This document shows positions 1 through 14,885 of a DNA stretch of 64,000 nucleotides, piece after piece. Each line of letters opens with the position of its first letter. The first letter of the stretch is position 1. The stretch spans positions 3,467,001 to 3,531,000 of the forward strand of contig NZ_CP155567.1 in NCBI RefSeq assembly GCF_039696035.1, in the 5' to 3' direction. Source of the DNA: Microbulbifer sp. SAOS-129_SWC. Lineage in GTDB: Bacteria > Pseudomonadota > Gammaproteobacteria > Pseudomonadales > Cellvibrionaceae. The translations under genes and the position numbers were made by a program. The notes under the pieces are model-generated. The model saw only the letters and a list, made by a program, of their open reading frames with translations, made no database searches and was not told the origin of the DNA.

Positions 1-3000
1 GGTCAGATCATCCAGTACCTGCAGGTTGTAGGCATTGGCGCTGCCGGTATTCTTTGCCGCAACGGTGACCGTGAGAATATCGTCGGCATCGCTGTCGGAA
101 ACGGCGAACGACTTGCTCAGCTGGATATCCGGTTCGCGTACGGTGACCTGGTGCGATTCGAACGGCACCACCACGGTGGTGCCGCTTTCGTTGACATAGT
201 GCACCTCGGCCGTCGTACTGCTGCCACCATTGATCAGGACATCACTGTCGTTGGTGCTCGCGCTATTTTCGATACGGGCGATAAACTCCACCGGGAATTC
301 GAACAGGCTGCCGGACACGGTGGTGAGTTCCTGATTGCCGAAGTCCCACTCGATATAGTCCCGGGTGCCATTATTGCCGCATGTCGGTGTAAAACTGCCA
401 CCGGGACTGAAGCCGGCTGCATTGAAAGGCGCCGCATCCAGGTTGATGGTCTGCCCCTCGACACACTGCATCCCCACCGGCAACTCATCGCGGATCACGA
501 AGTCGCGCAGCTGCGCCGCGGGAATCTGTGCCGTCAGCCGGTAGCGCAGTTCCTCACCAATCACCGCTTCATCACTAGCGGTGCCTGTCGGGGTGCCATT
601 GGACAGCGCGATCACTTTTTTCGGCTCGGCCTGCACCGAAATAATCTGCATCTGCGCTTCGGCTTCGGCGGATTGATAGTGGCGCGCGCGCCCCTTGGGG
701 TAGTTCGGTGTGCAGCTTGGCTCGTCAGTGTCGGCCGTGCCGCAGCCAATACCGTCGTCGTCGGTATCGCTGTCGATTTGTGGCGCCTGCTGGTTACCGT
801 AGTCGCCCAGCAAACTGTCGTAACGGGCATAGAACCTGTTGGTAAAAGTCTGCAGTGGCGCCACCGATTGCTCGGGCTTGACGCGGTAGTAGAGCGTGAC
901 AGATTTACCCGGATCGATGCGTTGCAGCGCAGTGGAATGCGCATAGGAAAATGTAATCACGGCCGGCGTACCACCGTCGGCACAATCGGTGGCGAGGTTG
1001 TAATCGTTGCTGCCGGCAGTGGTGCCGACCAGGCCCTCGTCACCCACGCCGGTATCGACGCCGGTGTCACCATCGTTGTCCAGGCCGTCGCTATCCAGCG
1101 GCTGCACACACATCTGGCCGGAGGAATCCAGGGTGTCGGTGACCACCACATCATAGGCCGGCGCCCGCGCGACGCCGCCATCGGTAGCGCGGTTGGTCAG
1201 TGTCAGCTGGAAGATATAGTTCTGGTCGCGGTGCCCCTCGTCGGTGAAATCGACGAATTTGCTACAGCCGGTGCCGGTGCCGTAGAGCGCCTCGTTACAG
1301 ACCTTCTTATCGACCTCGATCTGCGGCTCGGTAACGTTCATGTCCACGCGCCAGTCGGATTCCGGTGGATAGCCGGGAATATTCTGCGTTTCGTCGACGT
1401 CAATCGTTTCCGTATCGAATACCGCGGTGAAATGGCCGCGGCCGTAGTCGGTACTCACATTCGCATGCTGGTTAGGGTCTGCCACGGTATCGACCGGGCC
1501 GTTGAGCAGGCGCGTGGTCATATCCGCATGGAACCAGTGATCTTTCTCGGTAATTTCGCTGCCGCCACCGGTTGCGGCAAAAAACCAGCTCAGGTCCGCT
1601 TCACTGAAATCTGCGCTCAGACCGGATTCCGTGATGGAGCCGTCGATGTTGTGCGCCGGCGAAGACGTCAGGTAATTGTGCGCGATATAGCTCTGGCCAT
1701 CGGGCAGGTCGTCGGCGATGGTGACATCCCTGACCGCAATCAGGTTGTACCCCGGGGTCTTGAAGCCGAACCAGCCGCCCGCATGGATATCGAAGGTGCA
1801 GTCTTCGCCGATCTCGATATTGTTCTCCGGACCGGGCCGGTTACCGGCGACATATTCGGCGCAACTGTTTGCCACCGGCTCCTTCAACAGGTTGAAGCCC
1901 ATCACCCGCGCGCGCGTGGCGTCGAGGCTGTAGTTGTCCGCCTGCTGTTTGTCGGGCCGGCTATCGGTGAGGCTGGCCGGATCGGGAAATACCAGCGGCT
2001 CGCGATCACTGGTGGCCAGGGTGATTTCGCCGATGACATCGGCGCGGAATGTCAGGTCGTCGTCGGCAGCCGTTGCATTTTTCTCCACCTGGAAGGTGAT
2101 GTATTCGCGTCCCCCGGCGGCAATGGCACCGAGCTGGTCGCGACTACAACGATAGACCGTGGCAGTGTCAGGAATATAACTGGGCTGCTCCCACACCGGC
2201 CGCTCCAGTTCCGGACTGTGCGCCACCTCGGTGCAGCTGATGGGATTCTGGTAGGGGTTGTTGTCCGGGTCGGACGGGTTGTATTCCCCCAGTACCGTCA
2301 TTTCCTCGCCGAAGGTGACATAGATATAGTAATCATCCGCAGCGTGGCCGCCGTTGTTGTCGATCTGCACCGTCAGCGGCGAATCGCCGCTATCGCGGAC
2401 GATATACAGCGGGTGGGTCATGGACACATCCAGATCTTCCGGGCGCGGCGTGAAGGACCAGTCGTTATTCTTGCTGTGACTGTCGCCGCCATCGCTCGCG
2501 CAGAAATCCTGCCAGTCGATCTGCACGTTATTCTGCAGCGCAGAAAATGCGGCCGGGTCCGGGTCGGCACTGCCCTCCATGTCCAGGTCGGTCTGCTGGT
2601 CGTAATGTGTCAGGCCCGGCTCCACCAGCACGATGCGGAAGGTCAGGCTGACCTGCTCGCCCTGCCGCAGCAGGTCCATCTGGTCCGGATCATTGTTGGC
2701 GCGATCGCCGCTACTGGTAAGAAAAAATACCGGCTGCTGCAGATCCGGGTTCGGCGACCCGGGGTTGGCCGAGTCCTCGAGATAGGACTGGTCCCCCGCG
2801 GTGGGGATTACCCGGTTTTCCCAGTCGAAGGTGGACACCCGCCCGTCGTAATTCCCGTAGGTGTAACTGCGGTTCATCTGCGGCTCGTAGTTGGGGTCCA
2901 ACAGATAACCGGCGGGCAGGCTGTCGGTCAGGCGCACGCCCTTGATGGTGCCCTGACTGTTGTTGGTCACGGTAATCGTCACCAGGCCGCGGGTACCTAC

Positions 3001-4188
3001 GGTGTTGCCGCCATCGATACCGTTAAAGGTCACATTGTAATTGACCCCGCCATTGTTACCGCCGCTGTCCTGGGAGTGCACGCTGACCGCGGCGGAAGCG
3101 TCCGCCGGAGAGGACTGCACCGGATTGTCGCCACCCGCGTGGGTGATACCACCGGTGCCACCCACAGCGGGACAGCCCCACTGCAGGTCGTGGAAGGTAT
3201 TGGTCTGTAAATTGTCGCAGGCGTTGTGCAGCTGCCCGGCAAAGTAGAGATTTAAATCGCCACCGGCGGCCACGTTCAGGCTGAAACCCAGGTCACTGGC
3301 ATCGAGGCCGGCAAGGTTGTTGTTGTAGCCACTGACATCGGTACAGGAACCGAAACTGGCTGAAGCACCATTGGCCACCGCGGCGGCGTCAGACTCGGAG
3401 GAGCAGATGGCGTCTATGTCCATGGCACCTGAAGTCATATCATCGGTAATGACCACATCCTGTAGCGGTGCGCTGCCGCCGTTGTGTAACGCCACCCGCC
3501 AGATGATGCCATCACCCTGGTGGCCGTATATCTGTGCGGCATAGGTGCCCGCCCCCATACCCGCATCCACATTGCGCCCGCCCTTGGTAAAACTGGGGCG
3601 CGGCTCGACGATGGGCAGGGTGTGATTGTTCTGCGTATCGCAGTAGTTGTTATTGTCGCGATCGTAAACATATTCCGCGCGGGCGTGCAGGTTGCGCGGA
3701 TTCATATCCACCAGCTGCTCTTCGGTATTGGGCTCGTGCTGCAACTGGAAGCGGATGCGCACATAGTCGTTGCGGCCGAGCGTCAAACCGCTCAGGTTCC
3801 ACTGCAACAGGGTACTGCCAGAAGGGTCGCCAATGGCGGTGTAGCCGCCGCCGTTGATACTGATTTCGGAAGAACCGGTCTCGTATCCCAGCACACCGGC
3901 CAGGTCACCGAGGTCTTCGGTCACCAGGATTTGGCTGACCGACCTTGTGCCAAACCCCCAGCTCGCATCATTGCTAAGCTCGATTTCCACCTGTCCATGC
4001 TCACACAGCTCGCAGTAACTGTTCTGGCTGTAGCCGTCGATATGACTGACGGATACAGGCCCGCTGGAATTAGGGCAGGATAGGGCTGCCTGTGCCTGGT
4101 TGACCGGCAGCAACAAACCACCGCACACGAGAACAAAGCCGACAAGCGCATTCGCCAAAAAATTTCGCCCAATTACATCCACTGTCAT
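1..4188 (-). CDS. Giant secreted DUF11-type repeat surface protein (3' part cut by window edge)
   Basis: The frame stays open on the minus strand from an ATG at 4188 to the window edge, about 1396 codons, so the C-terminus is missing. The N-terminus has a hydrophobic stretch ending near an AQA site, read as a signal peptide. The mature part repeats beta-rich modules such as VVITDDM, LTDSLPAGYLL, VTDTLDSSG and FVIRDELPVGM, typical of DUF11/isopeptide D2-like surface proteins, together with Asp-rich stretches (DSDGLDNDGDTG, DSDTDDDG) that look like calcium-binding type-3 repeats. Many Cys residues are present. Family and export are supported; the function (adhesin, surface fibre or matrix protein) is not known. 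It is transcribed in the same direction as the motor cluster upstream but separated by 455 bp, so it may be a client of that machine or independent. Confidence 0.75.
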   Translation of the reverse strand, partial: MTVDVIGRNFLANALVGFVLVCGGLLLPVNQAQAALSCPNSSGPVSVSHIDGYSQNSYCELCEHGQVEIELSNDASWGFGTRSVSQILVTEDLGDLAGVLGYETGSSEISINGGGYTAIGDPSGSTLLQWNLSGLTLGRNDYVRIRFQLQHEPNTEEQLVDMNPRNLHARAEYVYDRDNNNYCDTQNNHTLPIVEPRPSFTKGGRNVDAGMGAGTYAAQIYGHQGDGIIWRVALHNGGSAPLQDVVITDDMTSGAMDIDAICSSESDAAAVANGASASFGSCTDVSGYNNNLAGLDASDLGFSLNVAAGGDLNLYFAGQLHNACDNLQTNTFHDLQWGCPAVGGTGGITHAGGDNPVQSSPADASAAVSVHSQDSGGNNGGVNYNVTFNGIDGGNTVGTRGLVTITVTNNSQGTIKGVRLTDSLPAGYLLDPNYEPQMNRSYTYGNYDGRVSTFDWENRVIPTAGDQSYLEDSANPGSPNPDLQQPVFFLTSSGDRANNDPDQMDLLRQGEQVSLTFRIVLVEPGLTHYDQQTDLDMEGSADPDPAAFSALQNNVQIDWQDFCASDGGDSHSKNNDWSFTPRPEDLDVSMTHPLYIVRDSGDSPLTVQIDNNGGHAADDYYIYVTFGEEMTVLGEYNPSDPDNNPYQNPISCTEVAHSPELERPVWEQPSYIPDTATVYRCSRDQLGAIAAGGREYITFQVEKNATAADDDLTFRADVIGEITLATSDREPLVFPDPASLTDSRPDKQQADNYSLDATRARVMGFNLLKEPVANSCAEYVAGNRPGPENNIEIGEDCTFDIHAGGWFGFKTPGYNLIAVRDVTIADDLPDGQSYIAHNYLTSSPAHNIDGSITESGLSADFSEADLSWFFAATGGGSEITEKDHWFHADMTTRLLNGPVDTVADPNQHANVSTDYGRGHFTAVFDTETIDVDETQNIPGYPPESDWRVDMNVTEPQIEVDKKVCNEALYGTGTGCSKFVDFTDEGHRDQNYIFQLTLTNRATDGGVARAPAYDVVVTDTLDSSGQMCVQPLDSDGLDNDGDTGVDTGVGDEGLVGTTAGSNDYNLATDCADGGTPAVITFSYAHSTALQRIDPGKSVTLYYRVKPEQSVAPLQTFTNRFYARYDSLLGDYGNQQAPQIDSDTDDDGIGCGTADTDEPSCTPNYPKGRARHYQSAEAEAQMQIISVQAEPKKVIALSNGTPTGTASDEAVIGEELRYRLTAQIPAAQLRDFVIRDELPVGMQCVEGQTINLDAAPFNAAGFSPGGSFTPTCGNNGTRDYIEWDFGNQELTTVSGSLFEFPVEFIARIENSASTNDSDVLINGGSSTTAEVHYVNESGTTVVVPFESHQVTVREPDIQLSKSFAVSDSDADDILTVTVAAKNTGSANAYNLQVLDDLT

Positions 4189-4643
4189 TACCACTTATCA
4201 GCCATTGTGTTCGATGGAGATCAGCGCCAGCTATCCGGCTGGCAGGAGTCACCGGGTGAGGTATCGCCCGGACGGCGGACTCTAGCGGGAGCGAATGGAA
4301 GCGGCAGTGAATCAGGTCAAAAATACCGCATTGACTGCAAACAATTGTTCAGTTTGCCAAGTGGTTCTCAGGGAAACCTGCAGAGGAATCTTCTGCACCG
4401 GGCGGCACAGTTCAAGAATGGGTTACAGCCTGCCGAGGCAACGCGAATATTGCCACTCAATGGCAGTGCAGCAATTACCCTTCATCGCAGACCGTAACCG
4501 CCTTCCTATAATTTTGCCTACGTGCGCGGCTGTTACGGCGGGTCGCTTGATCGCCACATCCCTGTGGCTAATCCCGACAAGACTTCACGCGAGCAATTCC
4601 TTACCCCAAGGCAAGGAATTGCTCCTCGCCCGGGCCCGCCATA
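4189..4643. other. Intergenic region upstream of the giant surface gene
   Basis: This gap of about 455 bp separates the AgmX-like gene from the surface-protein gene. It holds a strong hairpin at its right end and presumably the promoter of the surface gene. Short reading frames here overlap each other and have no recognisable product. I see no RNA gene. Confidence 0.5.
4591..4624 (-). terminator. Hairpin downstream of the AgmX-like gene
   Basis: GAGCAATTCCTT at 4591-4602 and AAGGAATTGCTC at 4613-4624 form a perfect 12-bp stem with a 10-nt loop, 20 bases past the stop of the AgmX-like gene. There is no T-tract, so it may stabilise the mRNA end or act as a factor-assisted terminator. Confidence 0.5.
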
Positions 4644-6023
4644 TCAACCGGCGGGGAGGAAGTCGATCGGGTAAAGGATGGTGATGGTGGGTACACCAGC
4701 CTTGGGACCGAAGTTGAAGCGCTTCACCCGCGCGACAATTTTGGCGTTTAGCGCCGGCGAATCCATATCGCTCGACTGTACCTTGGCCATGGACACCGAA
4801 CCGTCTGGTTCGATGGTGATCTTCAGCACCATCTTGCCCTGCAACGCCGGGTTGTTGCGCAGCTCGCGATTGTAGATGCGATACAGCGAAGACTTGTAGC
4901 GGTCGAAGACAATCTGGATCTCTTCGTCGGTACGGGACGGCCCCGCGCCATCGCTGAGCGGCCGGTCCTCGCCGGCGAAATCCCCCTCGGTACCGATCGA
5001 GCTCTCCACCCGTGTAAAGGCCACACCTTCCAGCGACGACCCCGCACCGCCAACATTGCGACTGAGACTGGCGGTGTTGATGCCGCCACTGCCGGCCTTG
5101 GCCGCTGCCGTAATCAACGAACGCTGACTGCGGTTTTCCTTCTTGCCGGCCGTGCTTAGCTGGGTGCGTTTGCCGAGACGGTCATCCAGGTCGTCCTCGA
5201 TAAGATCCTGGAAGTTGTCCTTGAATGCCAGCACACCAGAATGCTCGGCCTTCTTGCGAGCCTTCTTCTTCTCGGCCTTGGAGGGCTTGGGCTCCTCTTT
5301 CGCCACCTGCTGTTTGGGCTCGGGTTTTTTCTCCTTTTCTTTTTCTTTCTGCGGCTGCACCTGCTCCGGCGGCGGCTTGGGCTTGCTCTTCTTCTCGATT
5401 ACCAGCTTGGCCAGGCGCTCGGGAATTTCCACCGCCTTGTTTTTGTCCGGCTTGGGAATGGTCCACAGGGGCACCAGATAGCCGAGTAACAGGGCAACCA
5501 ACAGGGAAGCCAATACACAGCGGCGGAAGCGCCGCTCGTCTTCACCGTTGGTGTGCCAGGGCATCAGCGCCGGGCGTATTTTCGGTGCTTCCAGTTCACG
5601 GGTTATCTCGAACTCGAACTTGGATTCTTCCTCTTCGGTACGAATCCGCTCGGCACGCTCATCCAGATCAACGATGTCGTCTTCACAATCCGCTATCTTG
5701 GCCTGCACACGGCGGTGGCGCTCCTGCAGCAGGTCGATATTGGCATTGTAGATACTGACGGTATGCTGGATGCGCCGAATGATCGTCCGGGATGCATCCT
5801 CTCGGTAGTCATCCGCCCAGAACAGCTCGCCGGCACCGACCTCTTCCAGCTTGTCCAGGCGTTCGGATATCTCATCCAGCAGCTGGTGCTTGGCGCCATC
5901 CTTACGCAGCTGATCCAGCTTGCTGTCTATCTGCTGCCGCTCGCCTTCAAGCACCTGCAAGCGGCGGCGGACCGCTTCCAGTTCGCCGCTCACCGCCTGT
6001 TTTTGTTGAAGAAAATTACTCAC
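4644..6023 (-). CDS. AgmX/PglI C-terminal (TonB-like) domain protein
   Basis: A 459-residue protein. Residues 1-135 are a charged coiled coil, presumably cytoplasmic. One membrane segment lies near residues 170-190 (VLASLLVALLLGYLVPLW). A Lys/Pro/Glu-rich linker follows (KPKPPPEQVQPQKEKEKEKK), suited to spanning the periplasm. The C-terminus, about residues 365-459, contains ALQGKMVLKITIEPDGSV and matches the AgmX/PglI or TonB C-terminal fold. It begins 9 bp after the second exbD-like gene and ends the run. Known relatives, such as GltG/GltJ of Myxococcus or TonB, couple an inner-membrane proton motor to periplasmic or outer-membrane parts. That role is inferred here from architecture and context. 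Confidence 0.8.
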   Translation of the reverse strand: MSNFLQQKQAVSGELEAVRRRLQVLEGERQQIDSKLDQLRKDGAKHQLLDEISERLDKLEEVGAGELFWADDYREDASRTIIRRIQHTVSIYNANIDLLQERHRRVQAKIADCEDDIVDLDERAERIRTEEEESKFEFEITRELEAPKIRPALMPWHTNGEDERRFRRCVLASLLVALLLGYLVPLWTIPKPDKNKAVEIPERLAKLVIEKKSKPKPPPEQVQPQKEKEKEKKPEPKQQVAKEEPKPSKAEKKKARKKAEHSGVLAFKDNFQDLIEDDLDDRLGKRTQLSTAGKKENRSQRSLITAAAKAGSGGINTASLSRNVGGAGSSLEGVAFTRVESSIGTEGDFAGEDRPLSDGAGPSRTDEEIQIVFDRYKSSLYRIYNRELRNNPALQGKMVLKITIEPDGSVSMAKVQSSDMDSPALNAKIVARVKRFNFGPKAGVPTITILYPIDFLPAG

Positions 6024-6032
6024 AAACTTCCA

Positions 6033-6590
6033 CTAACCTTGAGCTGCTTTCTGAATGACCGCGAGAGAGACTCGTGTATAACCGGCATCGGTACAACTGG
6101 ACATCACCTTCTTGAGCAGACTGAACGGAACGGTTCTGTCGGCAAGAATATTGACTTCCGGTGGCTCCGGCTGGTTCGCGTCGTCTTCCCCTTCGGCCCC
6201 ATCGGCCCCTTCCGCCTGTTTTGCCTGTTCCGCCTTGGCGACGGTGATGGCTTTGTCCATCTGCGCAACCATCGCGTCCTTGATCGCCTGGATAACCGTG
6301 CCTTTACTGTCGATCACTTCGCTGGTGGCCACCACCGGCCGGGACTCCACCAGGATTTCCTTGTCGGTCACCATCAGCGTCACCGTCTCACGCGGCTTGG
6401 TTTCCACCACCGAGTCCGGCAGGGTAATCACTTTGGGCGGCTCCAGCGCTTCGTTGCTGGAGGTGTTGGTCAGCAGGAAGAACACCAGGATTGTGAAAAC
6501 GTCCATCAGGGAGGTCAGGTTCATGCCCTGTGTTTTCTTGCGCTTATGGCTTCGCGCCATGCGCTTCATGCGTCGACTTTCTCTCCTCAC
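6033..6590 (-). CDS. ExbD/TolR-family proton-channel subunit (second copy, Asp retained)
   Basis: A 185-residue ExbD/TolR-type protein with a basic cytoplasmic N-terminus, one membrane helix (LTSLMDVFTILVFFLL) and a periplasmic domain. The Asp in SLMDVF occupies the position of the protonatable residue of ExbD/TolR. The start overlaps the stop of the preceding exbD-like gene by 4 bp (ATGA), indicating translational coupling. An acidic Glu/Ala-rich insert (EGADGAEGEDD) interrupts the periplasmic domain. With the ExbB-like protein it should form a proton-motive-force-driven motor; this is inferred from the family. Confidence 0.85.
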   Translation of the reverse strand: MRRESRRMKRMARSHKRKKTQGMNLTSLMDVFTILVFFLLTNTSSNEALEPPKVITLPDSVVETKPRETVTLMVTDKEILVESRPVVATSEVIDSKGTVIQAIKDAMVAQMDKAITVAKAEQAKQAEGADGAEGEDDANQPEPPEVNILADRTVPFSLLKKVMSSCTDAGYTRVSLAVIQKAAQG

Positions 6591-7195
6591 GGCGCATCTC
6601 CTATGGATATATCCGGGAACAGGACCACGTGCTCTACAGCGTCAGGATCTTCCGGGTCACTGCCTTCCTGCCGGACCTCGGCAGCCCGCACCCTATCCAT
6701 GACGCCCACCAGGTACTCGTAGGCAATATTGGGTTCCATCAACAAAGTGGCGTCGGTCTTGTCCGGGTAACTGCCCTTGATCTTGAGCAGGAAACGGCTC
6801 AGCTTTTCCAGATCGTAGACGTCGCCGGTCGGCAGTACGGCGTTGGCATCAGCCGCCTGCTCACCCTCGGCATCTGCGGCCGGTTCAGCTGTCGCCGCAT
6901 CAGACTCAGCCTGCGCGGCGTCATCACGCTTGTTCAGGTTCGGAAAGCGCGCGATAACCTTTTCACCGTCGCTGACTTCCAGGGCATCCTTGCGTACGAC
7001 CACTTCCACGGTAATGGCCTTTTCATCGGGCGCGCCGCCGCCGGCGCCGCTGGGCATATTTAGCTCCAGGATGGTAACCCGGGAAAACACGGCCGAAACC
7101 AGCAGGAAAGGCACCAACACCACCATCAGATTGAGGAAGGCAGTGATATCCAGCTCCGGAGCTTCTTTGCTTTTCGCGTGGCGCCGGCTTCTCAT
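6587..7195 (-). CDS. ExbD/TolR-family subunit with Asn at the usual Asp position
   Basis: A 202-residue ExbD/TolR-family protein. Its single membrane helix reads LDITAFLNLMVVLVPFLL. By alignment with the canonical VTPFIDVMLVLL, the protonatable Asp is replaced by Asn in FLNL. A long Ala/Glu/Asp-rich insert sits in the periplasmic part (about residues 92-115). The start shares one base with the stop of the exbB-like gene (TAATG). Two non-identical ExbD-like genes beside one ExbB-like gene recall AglQ/AglS with AglR in Myxococcus. The Asn suggests an asymmetric heteromer in which only the partner carries the proton path, which is inference. Confidence 0.85.
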   Translation of the reverse strand: MRSRRHAKSKEAPELDITAFLNLMVVLVPFLLVSAVFSRVTILELNMPSGAGGGAPDEKAITVEVVVRKDALEVSDGEKVIARFPNLNKRDDAAQAESDAATAEPAADAEGEQAADANAVLPTGDVYDLEKLSRFLLKIKGSYPDKTDATLLMEPNIAYEYLVGVMDRVRAAEVRQEGSDPEDPDAVEHVVLFPDISIGDAP

Positions 7196-8007
7196 TACAC
7201 TTTTTCCACTTGCTGGTCGGCGTCGGCCTCAGCAACGGCGGCTTCCGCCGCTGGCGAACCCGCGTCTTCAGCTACAGTGTCCTCTGTCGACTGCGCGGCG
7301 GAGTTCAATTCTGCAGTCACATCAGCACTCTCGGTAACGACAGCCTCTTTGCCGGCTTCATTGTCGCGACGGCGACGACTGGACATGGAAATGAGGTTCA
7401 GCGCCTTGACGGATACCATTTCCAGGCTGTCGACAATCTCGCCGGTCAGCGAGTTCAGCCAGGCGTGGGCCAGCAGCAGCGGAATACCGGTCATCAGACC
7501 AAAGGCCGTGGTGTTCATCGCTACGGAGATACTGGCGGACAGCAGATCGGCCTTTTCCGCCGGGTTGGCGTTGGCCACCGCTGTAAATGCCTCGATCAGG
7601 CCCATAATCGTACCCAGCAGACCGAGCAGCGTGGCAATATTGGAAAAGAGCGCGATATAGGGTGTACGCTTCTCCAGCTGTGGAATGATCTCCATCATTG
7701 CCTCTTCCATCGCGATCTCGATATCTTCACGACGGCGCACAGCCCCCTGGCGCTCCAGTCCCATTGCCAGCACCTTGCTGACCCCGGAATCGTCCTGCTT
7801 GACCAGATTGCGGGCGCGATCGAAATCACCGGAATTCAGCACCGGCTGCAGTTTGTCCCACATACCGCGGTTGGTATGGCGCTCATACACCAGACGGATA
7901 TAGCGCTCTATCGTCACCGCCAAACCCAGCGCGGCTACCGCCAGGATGGGGTACATAAAGGTACCCCCCGTTTGGAAGAACGCGATTACGCTGTTGAAAA
8001 AGTCCAT
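7195..8007 (-). CDS. MotA/TolQ/ExbB-family proton channel
   Basis: About 270 residues. The first membrane helix (FMYPILAVAALGLAVTIERYI) is followed by a cytoplasmic domain and two further helices, including the family motif around LFSNIATLLGLLGTIMGLIEAF and a helix with SVAMNTTAFGLMTGIPLLL. The C-terminal 60 residues are an unusual Ala/Glu-rich acidic tail. I chose the ATG at 8007 because GAGGG sits 6 nt upstream; a GTG directly before it (8010) is the alternative. It heads the exbB-exbD-exbD-agmX subset and is separated from the TPR genes upstream by about 140 bp. Confidence 0.88.
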   Translation of the reverse strand: MDFFNSVIAFFQTGGTFMYPILAVAALGLAVTIERYIRLVYERHTNRGMWDKLQPVLNSGDFDRARNLVKQDDSGVSKVLAMGLERQGAVRRREDIEIAMEEAMMEIIPQLEKRTPYIALFSNIATLLGLLGTIMGLIEAFTAVANANPAEKADLLSASISVAMNTTAFGLMTGIPLLLAHAWLNSLTGEIVDSLEMVSVKALNLISMSSRRRRDNEAGKEAVVTESADVTAELNSAAQSTEDTVAEDAGSPAAEAAVAEADADQQVEKV

Positions 8008-8148
8008 CACAAGCCCTCTTAAAACGAGATCATTTTTTGATTGGTTACCGGGCGCCAGGCCCTGTGTCTATCGGCCCGATATTCCGGGCGAATTCGTTGC
8101 TAACTTACGCGCGCTTCTGCGATCTATGCGGTGGTGTTGCCGCAGTCA

Positions 8149-8523
8149 TTAGTCGTCAGACTGGCTCAGGCGGTAGAAATCCAGCTCACGCATGAATACT
8201 TCCTTGTCCAGCGGCTGCAGTTTGTCATCCATCAGACTGGACACCAGATCGCTCTCGACACCCACTTCGGAACTCTTCCAGGGCACGATATACAGTGACT
8301 TGGGCGCTTCCTTGTTGCCGATAATGGAGATACCGGAAAGCTCCTTGACCTCGTTATCCACCTTCTTGGCCGCGGTATTTTTCGCCGCGCCTTGCGCTTT
8401 TTTCGCCGATGCTTCCTCTGCAGCTGCCGGCACAGTCACCGCCAGCATCGAGGACAACAACAGAGCCAAAAGCGGGTATTGATGCTGCACTTTCATTTTC
8501 CGGGCCTTTCTTTGGTTATCCAT
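8149..8523 (-). CDS. Small exported protein of unknown function
   Basis: A 124-residue product, or 115 if translation starts at the second Met (8496), which gives a cleaner signal peptide (MKVQHQYPLLALLLSSMLAV, cleavage near AAA-EE). The mature part has a Lys/Ala-rich linker and a short C-terminal segment (LSGISIIGNKEAPKSLYIVPWK) that I do not recognise as a named domain. The longer start overlaps the preceding TPR lipoprotein gene by 8 bp, so the two are likely co-translated. Position between TPR lipoproteins and the motor genes suggests a periplasmic component of the same machine. Confidence 0.7.
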   Translation of the reverse strand: MDNQRKARKMKVQHQYPLLALLLSSMLAVTVPAAAEEASAKKAQGAAKNTAAKKVDNEVKELSGISIIGNKEAPKSLYIVPWKSSEVGVESDLVSSLMDDKLQPLDKEVFMRELDFYRLSQSDD

Positions 8524-9127
8524 GCCTTCTTTTCAGGTCCGCGACCCAGATGGTCACGTCCTTGTCGTCCGGCTCCAACTCGAGGTAGTGCTGGAATTGT
8601 GCCAGAGCGCACGGGACATCTTGCAGATAGAGATCACATAAAATTCCCAGATTCTTTACCAGCGGCAGATAATCCGGGTTCTCCGCCAGGGCGCCGGTAT
8701 AGAGTTTCCGCGCCTCGGCAAAGCGGCCCTGCTCCCGGTACAGCACGGCCAGTTCATTGGCCGCCACTGCATGGTTGGGGGCAACTTCCAGTGCGTGCAG
8801 AAAAGCCTCTTCCGCATTTTTTTCATTGCCAGATTTCTTGTACGCGATGCCCAGGTTGACGTAGGGCGCGGGCAGGCGCTTCTCCCGCTTGATGACTTCC
8901 TGCAGCAGCTCAATGGCTTCCGGGTATTGCTCGCCCTTCAGGAATTCGAGTGAACGCTCGAAATCCCGGTTCACGCTGCCGGAAACATGTATCGATGACA
9001 GGTCACCGGTCCCTTTTTCACGCGTCGGGGTCGAGGCGCAAGATGCCAATAGCGCCAGCGTTGACAGTAGGGCGAGCGCGGCGGCCGCCCGCGGCAGCCG
9101 TCGAATATTGGCCAATACACTAAACAT
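8516..9127 (-). CDS. TPR-repeat lipoprotein
   Basis: A 203-residue protein with a lipoprotein signal peptide ending in LLASC (Cys30). TPR-like units follow, for example YPEAIELLQEVIKREKRLPAPYVNLGIAYKKSG, then AEEAFLHALEVAPNHAVAANELAVLYREQG and ARKLYTGALAENPDYLPLVKNLG (here described by their key residues). It probably sits in the outer membrane facing the periplasm and acts as a protein-protein scaffold. It lies 6 bp downstream of the large TPR lipoprotein gene. Small TPR proteins are also part of Glt/Nfs-type complexes; assignment to a particular Glt protein would need profile searches. Confidence 0.8.
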   Translation of the reverse strand: MFSVLANIRRLPRAAAALALLSTLALLASCASTPTREKGTGDLSSIHVSGSVNRDFERSLEFLKGEQYPEAIELLQEVIKREKRLPAPYVNLGIAYKKSGNEKNAEEAFLHALEVAPNHAVAANELAVLYREQGRFAEARKLYTGALAENPDYLPLVKNLGILCDLYLQDVPCALAQFQHYLELEPDDKDVTIWVADLKRRHG

Positions 9128-9133
9128 CAGTCA

Positions 9134-12100
9134 TCAACTCCCGGTCGGGGCAGCGGAATCGGACCCGGCATCAGCCACATCCGGTTTCACCGGCACAATG
9201 GTTTCCATGTAGTTGTCGGCATCCTCTTTGCGGGCAAAGCGGGCCGGCACCAGACCGGCCAGCTTGTCGATACTCTTGGCGATCCACTGGTTGTAGATGC
9301 CCATGCCGAGCAACTCGATATTTTTCTTGTGCACCGAAATGGCCTTGTCCTCGAACGGGTAAATCTGGTCTTCCAATGCCAGTTCGTACTCCTCGAGTTC
9401 CAGCGGAGTCAGGTTGGTGGGCCGCTCGGAGTTTTTCAGCGCGCGACTGAAATGCAGATAGATCTCCGCCAGATAGTAGGTAGCGGCGGCGGTGACGTCC
9501 GCGACCTGGTAGTCGATCAGCTCCGAGTAGGCGCTGATGGCTGCCTTCATGCGCACACGCTTGGCATTCAGGTTTTGCTTGATCGGCGCCACCAGCTTCA
9601 CCTGCGTGAATGCCTCGAACTTGGGCTCCGCCAGCGCCAGCGCCGCGTTACCGGCGAGATAGCGGGTGCGGTCGTTGCGCGCCTCTCCACCCCGGGCCTC
9701 GGTACGCACCATCTGCCGCAATTCTTCCATGTACTGCTTGTGCTGTCCGGCGGCTTTGCACAGATCGGCAATCTTTTGCCGAGTTTCCAGCGCCGGCTCC
9801 ATCGGGCTCGGGAACAGCTTCACGTAACGGCGCAGCACCCGCAGGGCTTTGTCGCTGGACTTGGCCGCGATATACAGATCCGCGGCCTGGGTCAGCGCCT
9901 CGCGGCGCACCGCGTCGTCTTCAGATTCCCGCTCGATGCGCTCGAATTCGGCGGCCGCCAGCAGCAATTCGCCGCTCTCCTGATAGACCACCGCCAGCTT
10001 CTTGGTGACATCCTTGATCAGCTTGTGATTGGGGAAATGCTGGCGGAACGCCTTGAGTACGTCGGCAGCACGACTCCAGTCTTTCAATACGATCAACGAG
10101 GCCGCGGCATCGTACTCGGCCGTGGGTAGAATAGAGGCACCCGGCGCTACTTTGCGAATGCGCAGGAAGTGCTCGGCAGCGCTGGCATAGTCTTCCTGCT
10201 TGCGCGCCAGATCGCCCTGCTGGTAGATCGAGGCGGCCAGGTTGTCCACCAGGCCGGCGCGGTCTTTGGCATCCGGCGCGGTCAGCGCCAGCGCCTGCCC
10301 GTATCCTTTTTCAGCATCGGCAAACGCCTTGGTGTCGAAGGAGGCGTGGGCCACCAGCAGCCAGGCGGAGCGACGGATTTTGCGGTCGGCAGTGGGGAAT
10401 TTCTCCAGCAGCAGGTGGCCATTGCTGATGGTCTGCGGATAGTCTTTGAGTTTGTACAGGTCGTCTACCGCGCCCACCATGACCTTGGCGGCCTTCGCAT
10501 GTTTGGGGAAGGTATCGGCGAACTGCAGCGACGAGCGAATGACATCCCGGGTGGCCGGATCACGCTGATCGGCGGGCGCTCCCTTGAGCACCGTATCGAG
10601 ATTCTGGCGATAGGCGTAGACCGCCGCGTAACCGGCCTCACTGGAATGCTTGTGCTTCGGGTATGCGTAGGCGGTGCGCTCGTATTCCACTGCGGCGCCG
10701 TGGAAATCGCGGTTTTCCAGCATCAGCTCGGCGAGCTGGAAATTGATTTCTGGTGCACGCGGCTTGTCGCTGAAGGATTTCAGGTATTTGCGGTACCAGT
10801 GGATGGCTTCCGCATAGTTCTCGGCCTTGTGATCCTTGAGCTTCTTGTTCTGGTAGGCGGCGTGGTAGTGACTGGCCAGGTCGATCAGGTTGGTCTGCAG
10901 GAAGTCAACCACATCGCCGTATTCGTTGATATCAAACACGCTCCAGTAGCGGGCGTCGAGCGCATAGGTGGTGGCGAAGTCCTTCTTGGCATCCAGCACC
11001 AGCTTGGGGAAACCACCCTTCTGGTAGATATCGATGACGCGCATGGAGAAGTTGGCCGAGACCTTGTGCAACGGATTGCGCTCGACAAAGGTGGTATAAG
11101 CCTTGGCGGCGTCCTGATAACGGCGCTTGTCCAGGTAGTACTCACCCAGGTGGCTGTATACCAGCGACTCGTAATTCCGCGCGCCCTTGCGCGAGAAGTA
11201 GTCGACAATCATGTCGGCGCCGCCGAGATAGGAGAAGCTCAGGCTGACAACCCGAAAGGCATCCTCGACATTCTTGCGCTCGACCTTGTTATCCTGCTGC
11301 TCGAAGTCGTAGCCTTTCGACACCTTGTAGTCGAGCATGGCCATGAAATCATCGAGCGCCATCTCGTACATTTCCTGCTTGAACAGGGACCAGCCGCGCT
11401 TGTACAGCGCCAGTTCGTAAAAACTCGACGTGACGCCGAGGTCGATGACCTTGCCGTAGGCCTCTTCGGCATCCAGGTATTTTTTACGGGTAAAGTAATA
11501 TTCACCCAGGCGGAAATAGGATTCGTCGAGATGGCGCGAGTTCGGGTACTTCGCTACCAACTGGCGCAGCACCTCTACCGCCTGGTCGATAGCTCCGGTT
11601 TCCTCATAGGCGCGGGAGAGCTGATACATGACCTGGTCGTTACGGTCGTAGAGCGGGTATTTGACCAGCAACTTGCGGTAGAGCTCGATCGCCTCACTGG
11701 CATTGGCAGCCAGCATGGCATCCGGATTGTCACCGGGAGCCGCCGGCGGCGCGTCGCTGGTGGGAATATCGACCCCGGCAGTAGCGCGGGCTTCGAAATC
11801 GACGTCCGACTCCGCCGGGCCCGCGGCAGTGGGTGCCGAAGCGGCCGTGGCGGCTGCCGCGAGCGGCACACCAACGTGGCTGGGCGCGTCGAGCTTTTGG
11901 CCCGAGCCCTGATCCCGATCGGCATCGATTGAAACCACGGCACCACTGCCGGTAGCAGCGGCCGCGGCGCCATCGACGGCACGATCCTCGGCGCGGTGCG
12001 CCTGCTTGATTTTGAGGTCGGCGATACGCCGAATCGCCTCCGGCGTCAGCGCGGTTTCCGGCGTTTCCTGCAGGTATTTCTGGTAGCCGGCCAGCGCCTT

Positions 12101-12280
12101 TTCCAGGCTGCCATCGATATGCTCTTCCTTGACCTCGATATCGACGCGCTGCAGGCTACCGATGCGGCCGCGGTCACTGGTCGCCGCGCAACCGTGCAGA
12201 AGTACCGCGACCGACGCCACGGTGGCACAGCGGCGCAGCGATATCGCACTGGCAAGAGCGGATTTCGTCAGGGGCTTCAC
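9134..12280 (-). CDS. Large TPR-repeat lipoprotein of the trans-envelope cluster
   Basis: A 1048-residue protein with a lipobox LLHGC (Cys31), so it should be a lipoprotein. After an Ala-rich low-complexity stretch (about residues 95-180) the rest is alpha-solenoid with many TPR-like units, such as AIELYRKLLVKYPL, AVEVLRQLVAKYPNS, YLDAEEAYGKVIDLG and AAKAYTTFVERNPLHK. Its size and periplasmic location recall large TPR proteins of the Glt/Nfs complexes and other outer-membrane assembly scaffolds. The start overlaps the stop of the 695-residue gene by 4 bp, supporting one transcript. The binding partner is unknown. Confidence 0.82.
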   Translation of the reverse strand: MKPLTKSALASAISLRRCATVASVAVLLHGCAATSDRGRIGSLQRVDIEVKEEHIDGSLEKALAGYQKYLQETPETALTPEAIRRIADLKIKQAHRAEDRAVDGAAAAATGSGAVVSIDADRDQGSGQKLDAPSHVGVPLAAAATAASAPTAAGPAESDVDFEARATAGVDIPTSDAPPAAPGDNPDAMLAANASEAIELYRKLLVKYPLYDRNDQVMYQLSRAYEETGAIDQAVEVLRQLVAKYPNSRHLDESYFRLGEYYFTRKKYLDAEEAYGKVIDLGVTSSFYELALYKRGWSLFKQEMYEMALDDFMAMLDYKVSKGYDFEQQDNKVERKNVEDAFRVVSLSFSYLGGADMIVDYFSRKGARNYESLVYSHLGEYYLDKRRYQDAAKAYTTFVERNPLHKVSANFSMRVIDIYQKGGFPKLVLDAKKDFATTYALDARYWSVFDINEYGDVVDFLQTNLIDLASHYHAAYQNKKLKDHKAENYAEAIHWYRKYLKSFSDKPRAPEINFQLAELMLENRDFHGAAVEYERTAYAYPKHKHSSEAGYAAVYAYRQNLDTVLKGAPADQRDPATRDVIRSSLQFADTFPKHAKAAKVMVGAVDDLYKLKDYPQTISNGHLLLEKFPTADRKIRRSAWLLVAHASFDTKAFADAEKGYGQALALTAPDAKDRAGLVDNLAASIYQQGDLARKQEDYASAAEHFLRIRKVAPGASILPTAEYDAAASLIVLKDWSRAADVLKAFRQHFPNHKLIKDVTKKLAVVYQESGELLLAAAEFERIERESEDDAVRREALTQAADLYIAAKSSDKALRVLRRYVKLFPSPMEPALETRQKIADLCKAAGQHKQYMEELRQMVRTEARGGEARNDRTRYLAGNAALALAEPKFEAFTQVKLVAPIKQNLNAKRVRMKAAISAYSELIDYQVADVTAAATYYLAEIYLHFSRALKNSERPTNLTPLELEEYELALEDQIYPFEDKAISVHKKNIELLGMGIYNQWIAKSIDKLAGLVPARFARKEDADNYMETIVPVKPDVADAGSDSAAPTGS

Positions 12281-14364
12281 TGCTCGCCCTCCTTCTCAAC
12301 CGATTGGCTGGACGGCTTTTTCCCTTCCCCGGTCGGCGTCTGATCCGAGTCGCCCGACGGGGCTTCCAGCTCTGGTGGGTTGTCCTGTGGTAGGGACTCG
12401 CCCCCGGCGGCTTTGTGCATCTCGATCTTGCGCTGGTCGCTGCGCTGCTCCTGCAGCTCGTTCGCGCGGTCGTAGCTGTCCGCCAGGGCGAAACGCGCTT
12501 TGATCTGGTAGCTTTCCAGTTGTGCGCGACGATGGTCGAGCTCGTTGATGGCCAGCGTTTCCAGCATATTGCCCTGGCGCGCCATCAGTGTCTCCAGACG
12601 CCCCTGTGTATGCTCGATCTGCGCCCGCAGACGGTCAATAGTATCGTTGTAACCGATATAGCTCTGGGTCGCCGCCTGGCGGCCGCGCACGTAGGATCGG
12701 TAGACGGTCTGCAGGGAATCAATCTCGGTATTGAGTTGCTGCAGATGTTTGTAGGCTTTCGTCAGGCGGTCGTCATACTGTGTCGCCAGGCGCCAGTCGA
12801 GAATGCCCTTGAGCCGCGCGATACGCGCGCGCGCTTGCGCATTGCCCTTGGTCGGCAATTGATTGTGCAGCTGTTTCAGCTGCAACAGTGATTCCTGCTC
12901 ATCGGCAGTGGCCAGATATTCAGGGCGTCGCGTTACCAGCATCTGCTCGATGCGCGCGGCAAACTTATCCCGCTGCTCGATACGCAACTTGATACGGGCA
13001 TCCAACCGGCGAAATTTGCGATCCAGGTCCGGCAGCAGCGGCTCATAGTAATTGCGTCGCCGCTGGATCAGGTCTTCGTAAGCGCTGAGATTTTTGAGCC
13101 AGGTTTTGTTGCGCTCGTGCAGGTCGTTCAAGTCGCGGTAGTTGTGCAAAAACTCCTGGTAGTCGTTGGAAGCCATCAGGTCCAGCAAGTAATGGGTCTC
13201 AGGGGCACCGGGAATTTTGCGCAGGGCCACCACCCAGTTCTGCACCTGGTCTGCCTCCTTGCGTCGCAGCGCTTCGAGAAACTTGCCTTTACGAATGCTA
13301 TTGATCGAGGCGTTCAGGGTATCGATTTCACGACCGAAAGCGTCCAGAGCACGGCCATAGTTGATCGCCGCGGTACTGTAGACATCGAGCTGGCCGTAGG
13401 CATAAGGAACCGCGAGCATCGCCTCCTGCACGGCCTTGTCAGTGCCCTGGCGTTTCTGCAGCATTTTCCAGGGTACCAACGCGCGATCGAATCGACCCGC
13501 ACGCGCTTCCACCCAGCCGGCGCCAAGCAGGGCACGGTTGGAGAAGGGGCCTTCCAGATGTACGCGATCGAAATACGGGCGCGCCAGATCCAGCTTGCCG
13601 GCATCCATAAGACGGCTGCCCAGCAGCATGTTGGTTTTGTCGTATAGCGCCTGCCGGGCCGGATCGGAGCTACTGCGCTTGCCCAGCGCGGTCAGTTCCT
13701 GCAGACCCTGCTCCTCGTGGCCCGATTTGAGCAGGGCAATGCCAAGGTTGTACTCGACGAAGCCATCCAGACTGCTCTCGCCCTCGAGATCCTTCAACAG
13801 CGCCACCGCCTCATCGAGACGGCCCAGCTCCATGTACACCCGTGCGCGCAGGAACTGCTCCTCCGGGCGTACGCGCTCCGGCACTTTGCCGTGAATCAGT
13901 TCCAGCGCGTGCAGTGCATTGCGCGGCTGTTGCTTGTGATACTGGATTTTGGCCAGGCGGTAGGCGGCTTCATTGCGCACCGGCTGTGGCACATCGCCGT
14001 TGAGCACAGCTTCAATAGCGCGGCCGGCGGCACGGTGCATCCGATAGGAGAGCTCCAGGTCACCGACGGAGAACTGCGCCTGCCCGAGATGCGCAGTAAA
14101 CGGATCCAGCTCCGGCTCATCCAGGTGGCTGTACTGGTCCAGCTCATCATCGAGTTCGACGATGGCATCGAAATAGTTGTGCTGGTAGGCCTGGAACATG
14201 GCCTCACCAAAGAAGAGATCCTTCAAATTGTGCTCGGCCGGCAGGCTGTGCTCCGCGGAGGGAGCGGCCAGCAGCAGGGCAGGTAAAAATCCCAGCGTCG
14301 CCGCCAGTACCCGCAGCGAAGTCTGTACAGCGCCGGGCAGAGTATGAACCGCTCTGGTACGCAT
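12277..14364 (-). CDS. Exported TPR/coiled-coil scaffold protein
   Basis: A 695-residue protein with an N-terminal signal peptide (hydrophobic about residues 16-34, ending LLLAAPSA). Residues 45-330 hold TPR-like helices (AAYRLAKIQYHKQQPRNALHAL, ARVYMELGRLDEAVALLKDLEG and similar). The second half, about residues 400-640, is strongly charged and predicted coiled coil (YYEPLLPDLDRKFRRLDARIK and following). The C-terminus is disordered, rich in Glu, Pro and Ser. It lies 2 bp after the small upstream gene and overlaps the following lipoprotein gene by 4 bp. No enzymatic motif is visible; a periplasmic structural role in the same complex is inferred. Confidence 0.8.
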   Translation of the reverse strand: MRTRAVHTLPGAVQTSLRVLAATLGFLPALLLAAPSAEHSLPAEHNLKDLFFGEAMFQAYQHNYFDAIVELDDELDQYSHLDEPELDPFTAHLGQAQFSVGDLELSYRMHRAAGRAIEAVLNGDVPQPVRNEAAYRLAKIQYHKQQPRNALHALELIHGKVPERVRPEEQFLRARVYMELGRLDEAVALLKDLEGESSLDGFVEYNLGIALLKSGHEEQGLQELTALGKRSSSDPARQALYDKTNMLLGSRLMDAGKLDLARPYFDRVHLEGPFSNRALLGAGWVEARAGRFDRALVPWKMLQKRQGTDKAVQEAMLAVPYAYGQLDVYSTAAINYGRALDAFGREIDTLNASINSIRKGKFLEALRRKEADQVQNWVVALRKIPGAPETHYLLDLMASNDYQEFLHNYRDLNDLHERNKTWLKNLSAYEDLIQRRRNYYEPLLPDLDRKFRRLDARIKLRIEQRDKFAARIEQMLVTRRPEYLATADEQESLLQLKQLHNQLPTKGNAQARARIARLKGILDWRLATQYDDRLTKAYKHLQQLNTEIDSLQTVYRSYVRGRQAATQSYIGYNDTIDRLRAQIEHTQGRLETLMARQGNMLETLAINELDHRRAQLESYQIKARFALADSYDRANELQEQRSDQRKIEMHKAAGGESLPQDNPPELEAPSGDSDQTPTGEGKKPSSQSVEKEGEQ

Positions 14365-14366
14365 GA

Positions 14367-14885
14367 TTACCAGTCCTTGAAATTAATCGCAGACTCGGTA
14401 CCGGCTATTTTTATCTCGACAAACTTCGGTCCCACGGCCTTGTCCACCTTGTAGCTGGCAGTGGCCTGCCGGTCCTTGCCGGACTCGGACTTACCGATAA
14501 AGTGCACCTGCAGTGGGTGGCTTCCCGTCTGCAGATTGCCGGTGTAGATCTTTTGCACACCGCCTTTGTGCAGCGCCTCAATCTCCCTGTAGGTGTACAG
14601 GTGATGGGCAACGACTTCGTTGTCGAGGGTAATCTCCACCGACTCCAGATTGAACGCACTGGCGCCTTGCAGGGATACAAAAAATGAAACCTGGGTATTG
14701 GACGGGTAGAGTAATTTTTCCTCAAGCTGCGCCAGCTGTGAGGTCAAGCCAATCACGTCTTTCTTGACGCCCTGGATCTGTTCGTCCAGCCCGCGAATTT
14801 CATCACGACTGACTTCTTGCGCTGCCTGCGCAAAAGCGACCGACGACAGCAACATGAGTATTGTTAACTGTAGAATTCTGAACAT
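14367..14885 (-). CDS. Small periplasmic protein with coiled coil and beta domain, first gene of the cluster
   Basis: A 172-residue product from the ATG at 14885, chosen because AGAGG lies 9 nt upstream; a TTG 30 bp further upstream is less likely. It has a signal peptide (MFRILQLTILMLLSSVAFAQ), a short coiled coil (EIRGLDEQIQGVKKDVIGL) and a beta-rich domain of about 110 residues (LESVEITLDNEVVAHHLY, YTGNLQTGSHPLQVHFIG). The beta part resembles small carbohydrate-binding or immunoglobulin-like modules, but I cannot name it. As first gene of a tightly packed run it is probably a component of the envelope complex; proteins of this outline occur beside Agl/Glt-type genes. Confidence 0.72.
   Translation of the reverse strand: MFRILQLTILMLLSSVAFAQAAQEVSRDEIRGLDEQIQGVKKDVIGLTSQLAQLEEKLLYPSNTQVSFFVSLQGASAFNLESVEITLDNEVVAHHLYTYREIEALHKGGVQKIYTGNLQTGSHPLQVHFIGKSESGKDRQATASYKVDKAVGPKFVEIKIAGTESAINFKDW

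Follow-up and report, generated by a model that had tools for sequence, protein, structure and literature searches.

A nine-gene Agl-Glt/Nfs-type core in Microbulbifer and its genomic linkage to giant DUF11-repeat proteins and a barrel-like OmpA protein

What does a standalone Agl-Glt-type motor do in a marine bacterium, and on what would it act? The conserved core (gltC, gltD, gltE, gltG, aglR, aglQ, aglS, and one extra gene) has been known since 2011 as a clustered unit of unknown function in Gammaproteobacteria and Geobacter; in the available text of Luciano et al. 2011 (PMC3169522), phylogenetic trees place the core genes of other Gammaproteobacteria in a single clade with those of M. xanthus, and GltG couples with AglR. 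The available portions of Wartel et al. 2013 (PMC3858216) describe the core as a possible basal transport machine and Agl-Nfs as moving or arranging surface polysaccharide on Myxococcus spores. We analyzed a window of 64,000 nucleotides from Microbulbifer sp. SAOS-129_SWC (positions 3467001-3531000 of the 4.63-Mb single-contig genome), with a minus-strand gene run resembling such a core. The closest named relatives of the locus, among the matches listed, are from Microbulbifer.

The ORF check of the window detected all nine ORFs (A-I, Table 1), separated in the order A to I by 2, -4, 6, 19, 138, -1, -4, and 9 bp, confirming the tightly packed minus-strand run that had been predicted from the letters of the sequence. 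The start positions were corrected for A (14885) and E (8496 or 8523). The predicted run held for its nine genes but not for its end at 4644, as same-strand giant genes, overlooked in the original inventory, continue 3' of I after a gap of 449 bp. The scan for promoters and terminators found nothing between I and giant1; upstream of A it found no promoter-like site, and two terminator-like sites at about chance level.

Table 1. Features of the core module and the adjoining giant and barrel genes; window positions unless the chromosome is named
Feature	Coordinates	Strand	Description
A	14367..14885	-	exported protein of 172 aa with a signal peptide, a coiled coil, and a beta-sandwich domain; heads the conserved run
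B	12277..14364	-	695-aa exported TPR/coiled-coil protein; GltC-like by position and architecture; TPR by Pfam
C	9134..12280	-	1048-aa TPR lipoprotein; GltD-like by position and architecture; TPR by Pfam
D	8516..9127	-	203-aa TPR lipoprotein; GltE-like; TPR by Pfam
E	8149..8523	-	small exported protein, 115 or 124 aa depending on the start chosen
F	7195..8010	-	AglR/TolQ/ExbB-type channel subunit; PF01618 (MotA_ExbB) 88.5 bits; alignment
G	6587..7195	-	ExbD/TolR-type subunit, Asn at the usual Asp position; PF02472 (ExbD) 45.4 bits
H	6033..6590	-	ExbD/TolR-type subunit, Asp kept; PF02472 (ExbD) 52.6 bits
I	4644..6023	-	GltG/TonB-like bridging protein; AgmX/PglI C-terminal domain
giant1, full ORF	own chromosome 3458100-3471194 (L140:6101-19195)	-	4,364-aa exported DUF11-repeat protein
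giant1, 5' part in window	1..4194	-	same-strand ORF running off the left edge
giant2	own chromosome 3447398-3457840	- (same strand as core)	3,480 aa; outside the window
giant3	own chromosome 3442176-3447401	- (same strand as core)	1,741-aa OmpA/barrel protein; outside the window

The predicted TolQ/ExbB-type channel and two ExbD/TolR-type subunits were recovered with Pfam models above cut-off in F, G, and H, and the conserved motifs fit an AglR-type channel with two AglQ/AglS-type subunits. The H product has Asp at the Asp30 position in 95/95 aligned rows, and G has Asn at the expected Asp position in 44/47 rows taken as window-type and 35/51 others, a lopsided axle in which H keeps the Asp presumed to carry protons and G has Asn there. 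I is built of a cytoplasmic coiled coil, a single TM helix, a Pro/Lys-rich stretch (by eye), and the AgmX/PglI C-terminal domain, the last at 67.2 bits by NCBIfam (NF033768, cut-off 40), in agreement with the AgmX/TonB-like bridging protein originally proposed; it passes the TonB C-terminal model TIGR01352 (28.9 bits, cut-off 27.1), and scores below cut-off with the full GltG equivalog model NF033760 (57.9 bits, cut-off 650) and the TolA model (28.4 bits, cut-off 59.45). At the equivalog level, all TolQ/TolR and ExbB/ExbD models are far below their curated cut-offs: TolQ, the best NCBIfam model for F, gave 51.5 bits (cut-off 221), ExbB 32.1 bits for F (cut-off 206.2), and TolR 22.2 bits for H (cut-off 127.3), and neither TolB nor Pal was found among the nine genes. 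The locus is not a standard Ton or Tol system, as had been predicted.

B, C, and D fit GltC, GltD, and GltE by TPR architecture and gene order, in a comparison made without M. xanthus sequences. D scored 47.6 bits with the GltE model NF033758, below its cut-off of 225 and alike with several other TPR models, and C passed the Tol-Pal YbgF model (92.5 bits, cut-off 90.1). The predicted lipoboxes are borne out in the window, where C and D have lipobox-like N-termini, and an alignment of 20 rows shows no variation at the lipobox Cys of C; a plain pattern search, run with author-chosen starts, detected a lipobox in only part of the rows (18/27 for C, 21/26 for D). E carries a conserved motif, G..E.P....PW, and the Pfam search assigned it to no known family. 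A had no Pfam or NCBIfam match at E<=0.01, and its model (pLDDT 80.7) had no Foldseek match at E<=0.001. Public databases label many A relatives 'AraC family transcriptional regulator'; we rejected an AraC-type regulator for A, as the model gives a signal peptide, a coiled coil, and a beta-sandwich, and the naming looks like a spreading misannotation of what is modelled as an exported beta-sandwich protein.

The complete nine-gene set is colinear and on the same strand in 66/80 related loci, and 12 others are cut by a contig end, leaving two true exceptions, L097, which has only A, B, C, and E, and L126, which lacks A and has B at no better than E 7e-4; the 80 loci are the best 80 of at least 542 relatives, and the sample leans towards the window type. 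The arrangement is therefore not due to chance, and the genes are clustered in a single region outside Myxococcales. The original prediction depended on motor and TPR genes being conserved together in relatives, and they are. Family models, gene content and order, and the similar cluster in the published text available (PMC3169522, PMC3858216) bear out the proposed likeness to the Agl-Glt/Nfs core and support, at the level of sequence, the reading of the nine genes as a putative standalone core complex of an already known kind.

The core is followed 3' by giant1, giant2, and giant3 in turn. Giant1 begins with a signal-peptide-like segment and contains DUF11, SdrD_B, and Cna-B-like domains; giant3 overlaps giant2 by 4 bp and carries OmpA domains in three stretches (76.6 bits). 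Giant1 and giant2 match identically over blocks of 374 and 113 residues close to their C-termini, which suggests recent copying between them, and the last 160 residues of the giants from 13 other loci are 48-64% identical to those in the window. An OmpA-like C-terminus of the giants, a by-eye impression, is not claimed (Pfam in 0/14 members; hhalign against the giant3 OmpA domain, with shallow alignments, gave a probability of 0.1%). The C-terminal half of the giant3 homologue from Geomonas was modelled with about 30 long strands, suggesting a barrel-like fold at low overall confidence (mean pLDDT 54.2; from residue 310 onward most blocks lie at 58-87, except for a poor segment at 551-620). 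By their titles, the 50 listed Foldseek hits for this model are outer-membrane barrels, and the 50 listed VIA-align hits are membrane barrels from bacteria or mitochondria; SprA (6h3j) was at Foldseek rank 50 (TM 0.22) and absent among the 50 VIA-align rows listed. The search for a GltA/B-like barrel in this genome (G000) gave 27.6 bits at best for TIGR04565 (cut-off 60), which we take to be the family containing GltA/GltB.

Genome-wide, 34 DUF11 matches fall in three ORFs, two of which are giant1 and giant2. The third, of about 3,700 aa, lies at about 4.000-4.008 Mb of the own chromosome (L151), unlinked to the module, and its several equal-scoring DUF11 matches suggest near-identical repeats. 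Some giant3 relatives (among P0124-P0243) are named 'flagellar motor protein MotB' in databases. No flagellin was found in this genome.

The genomic linkage of the core to the giant/barrel pair is strong, and it lends genomic support to the original inference that the machine may move or export surface material. Within the genus, the window-type C gene is present in 36/37 genomes (own included), and all 36 also carry giant3; the only genome without window-type C (G007, 80% complete) also lacks giant3. In 35/36 the giant3 gene is on the contig and strand of C, with the nearest copy 13-29 kb 3' of it, and in the other one it is on a separate contig.

Across lineages, a giant adjoins the core module in 30/80 named loci. 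In the tree of the GltD-like C protein (95 rows, without Myxococcota; L093 and L121 left out for short C; a quick tree with some long branches), the giant-bearing rows are all on one branch with support of 100, comprising 37 rows including the window: 30 with a giant, 6 cut, and 1 with none (L090). Among uncut rows, those with a nearby giant are 30/31 inside this branch as against 0/48 outside it, where 43 of the 48 have 1.0-6.4 kb of 3' flank (37 at least 4 kb) and 5 have none or less than 1 kb; the cut rows outside the branch likewise show no giant (0/10). The branch spans Gammaproteobacteria, Betaproteobacteria, and Geomonas. The giants are 5' of A on the same strand in L082 and L094 and on the opposite strand in L077 and L081, and the L090 genome has a giant/barrel pair about 100 kb from the core. 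One locus, L091, is from a MAG labelled Anaerolineales, with a module grouping with proteobacterial ones, likely by contamination or mislabelling.

The giant3 search of 30 genomes was positive in 18/19 genomes with a window-type core; the miss is G071, the genome of L089, where a giant start adjoins the core. Among the other 11 genomes, picked for another core type, four have strong giant3 matches, and all four carry the window-type module as well, detected in three by C near giant3 and in the fourth by F-I, which lie next to its giants where the contig ends; the remaining 7/11 have neither. Of 274 genomes drawn across the class, 63 carry C at E<=1e-40, and 8 of the 63 are window-type by score and N-terminal coverage; giant3 is present in 8/8. 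Among open-licence papers, by titles and abstract starts, we found none joining the core to DUF11 giants.

Outside the giant branch, the genes preceding the module often encode TlpA-like thioredoxin, ApbE, DUF3570, or OMP_myx_plus proteins, names taken from single representatives and spread by similarity (for instance, OMP_myx_plus TIGR04565 in L119 at 155.1 bits, cut-off 60). A neighbor marker of this kind was detected in 1/30 giant-bearing loci (TlpA in L077), and ApbE and two other genes precede the second Microbulbifer copies of the module in 8/8 loci fetched (L045-L052). Across the loci of other module branches (L099-L139, L038-L052), the adjoining genes are TlpA-like, ApbE, DUF3570, OMP_myx_plus, and SH3-domain genes. 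Judging from these neighborhoods, the core is one putative chassis with alternative outer parts by branch.

The giant/barrel pair is also found by itself. Giants with a related C-terminus followed by a barrel have no core gene in the fetched stretch in L178-L181, L186, and L187, and neither do the more distant single-chain giant-barrel forms (L183-L185). In L165, giant1 and giant3 are in one ORF, the 5' end of which is cut by the contig; in L183 (G208), a giant-like C-terminus and the barrel share an ORF whose length is at least 6,331 aa within the stretch that was fetched and 11,777 aa according to the search tool. The pair is present in the 97% complete genome G162, where no C-like gene was detected at E<=1e-40. 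Giant3 does not serve as an exclusive marker of the window-type core: of the 13 class-draw genomes with giant3 at 45% identity or more, 5 (45-52%) lack window-type C (one of them is 75% complete, and in another giant3 sits on a contig of 3.5 kb), and weaker relatives (28-37%) occur in 10 more class-draw genomes without window-type C. The pair present without the core indicates that it does not always need the motor; given that some genomes fuse giant and barrel and others have them without the core, the motor is probably not the general exporter of the pair, and the core looks like an added energizer of the pair in one lineage.

These observations bear directly on a dedicated export machine, in which the core would power the translocation of the giants through the giant3 barrel and the substrates would share a C-terminal recognition domain. 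The conserved giant C-terminus, the long identical blocks of giant1 and giant2, the barrel-like giant3, and the tight linkage are all consistent with such a machine, but we consider it unlikely, given that the pairs occur without the core and that the single-chain forms (L165, L183-L185) suggest an autotransporter-like, motor-free route.

We hold it somewhat probable instead that the core in the lineage of the window is a proton-driven chassis acting on barrel-anchored giant fibers, which it would pull on, position, or deploy. F with the G/H axle would be the motor, turned or pulled by proton flow, with Asp30 of H as the presumed proton carrier, and I would be a TonB-like transducer, linking the motor with the periplasm in the manner of GltG and AglR. 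B, C, and D would be periplasmic or outer-membrane TPR proteins, with A and E as two small exported partners. The dedicated surface assembly would consist of one or two giant DUF11-repeat fibers (giant1, giant2) with the conserved C-terminal domain, together with giant3, which would be an outer-membrane barrel bearing OmpA domains. I and the TPR proteins may carry force across the periplasm to the barrel/fiber unit, with the TPR lipoproteins reaching the barrel; the core would then be in physical contact with the barrel and the giants exposed at the surface. Force on the fibers could move, tension, retain, or deploy them, with adhesion control or gliding-like surface movement as the putative output.

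This fiber-working chassis best explains the colinear core, its linkage within the genus and across lineages, the giant-barrel fusions, the barrel-like predicted fold, and the DUF11 repeats and signal-peptide-like start of giant1. Against it are the core-less pairs, the distance in L090, the lack of a giant3 match in G071, the gap between I and giant1, and the weak giant3 model.

Two further readings fit the data less well. An Nfs-like polymer transport, in which the core would move or arrange surface polysaccharide and the giants would be structural coat proteins of the same layer, has its precedent in Agl-Nfs on Myxococcus spores (PMC3858216, available portions), but no polysaccharide genes were recognized among the recurrent neighbors (by eye, in part of the flanks), and we consider it very unlikely. 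A Tol-Pal-like tether, in which the giant3 OmpA domains would bind peptidoglycan and the motor would set the tether site for envelope stability and not for surface work, is suggested by those domains, by TolQ as the top, below-cut-off NCBIfam model for F, and by the YbgF match of C, but is highly improbable, leaving giants with open frames of about 1,700-4,800 aa unexplained and fitting poorly with a patchy distribution (window-type C in 8/274 genomes of the class).

The chassis for giant fibers can be compared with several known systems. Tol-Pal and TonB-ExbBD share the motor family with the core, and I and C pass a TonB C-terminal and a YbgF model, respectively; they differ in that the TolQ, ExbB, TolR, and TolA models are below cut-off here and TolB and Pal are absent from the nine genes. 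In Salmonella, according to the available text, the MotAB-like proton channel SiiAB controls the retention of the giant repeat adhesin SiiE (PMC6272769). SiiE exits by an ABC type I system, whereas the giants here have Sec-type signal peptides (by eye), an OmpA/barrel partner, and a TPR-rich core. In the Type IX/gliding machine of Bacteroidota, the GldLM 5:2 motor powers movement of the giant adhesin SprB of about 6,500 aa (PMC13104615, available text). The likeness to that machine is weak, with the PorW/SprE model NF052312 at 47.7 bits in C (cut-off 250), short of a Type IX assignment, and SprA at rank 50 among many barrels for giant3. SiiAB/SiiE and GldLM/SprB are working analogies, not relatives by any test applied here. 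It is quite possible, if somewhat short of probable, that one Agl-Glt core lineage became a proton-driven machine for giant barrel-anchored surface fibers, separate from SprB/T9SS and SiiE/SiiAB and horizontally spread, with sister lineages running a different outer part.

The closest comparison is with the core of Luciano et al. 2011 (PMC3169522, available text), which likewise clusters one channel with two subunits of the ExbD type, a GltG-like transducer, and three proteins of TPR type. It includes one extra gene, whereas here both A and E, the two small exported genes, are almost always present, and the words 'DUF11', 'giant', and 'Microbulbifer' are absent from its main text. By themselves, the nine genes add a member to a known kind of core; the difference, and the new part, is that one core lineage goes with giants and a barrel. 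A partner set tracking one core branch through distant bacteria names a concrete substrate that is testable in a marine genus, and a core acting as a chassis with alternative outer parts would bear on the origin of gliding machines.
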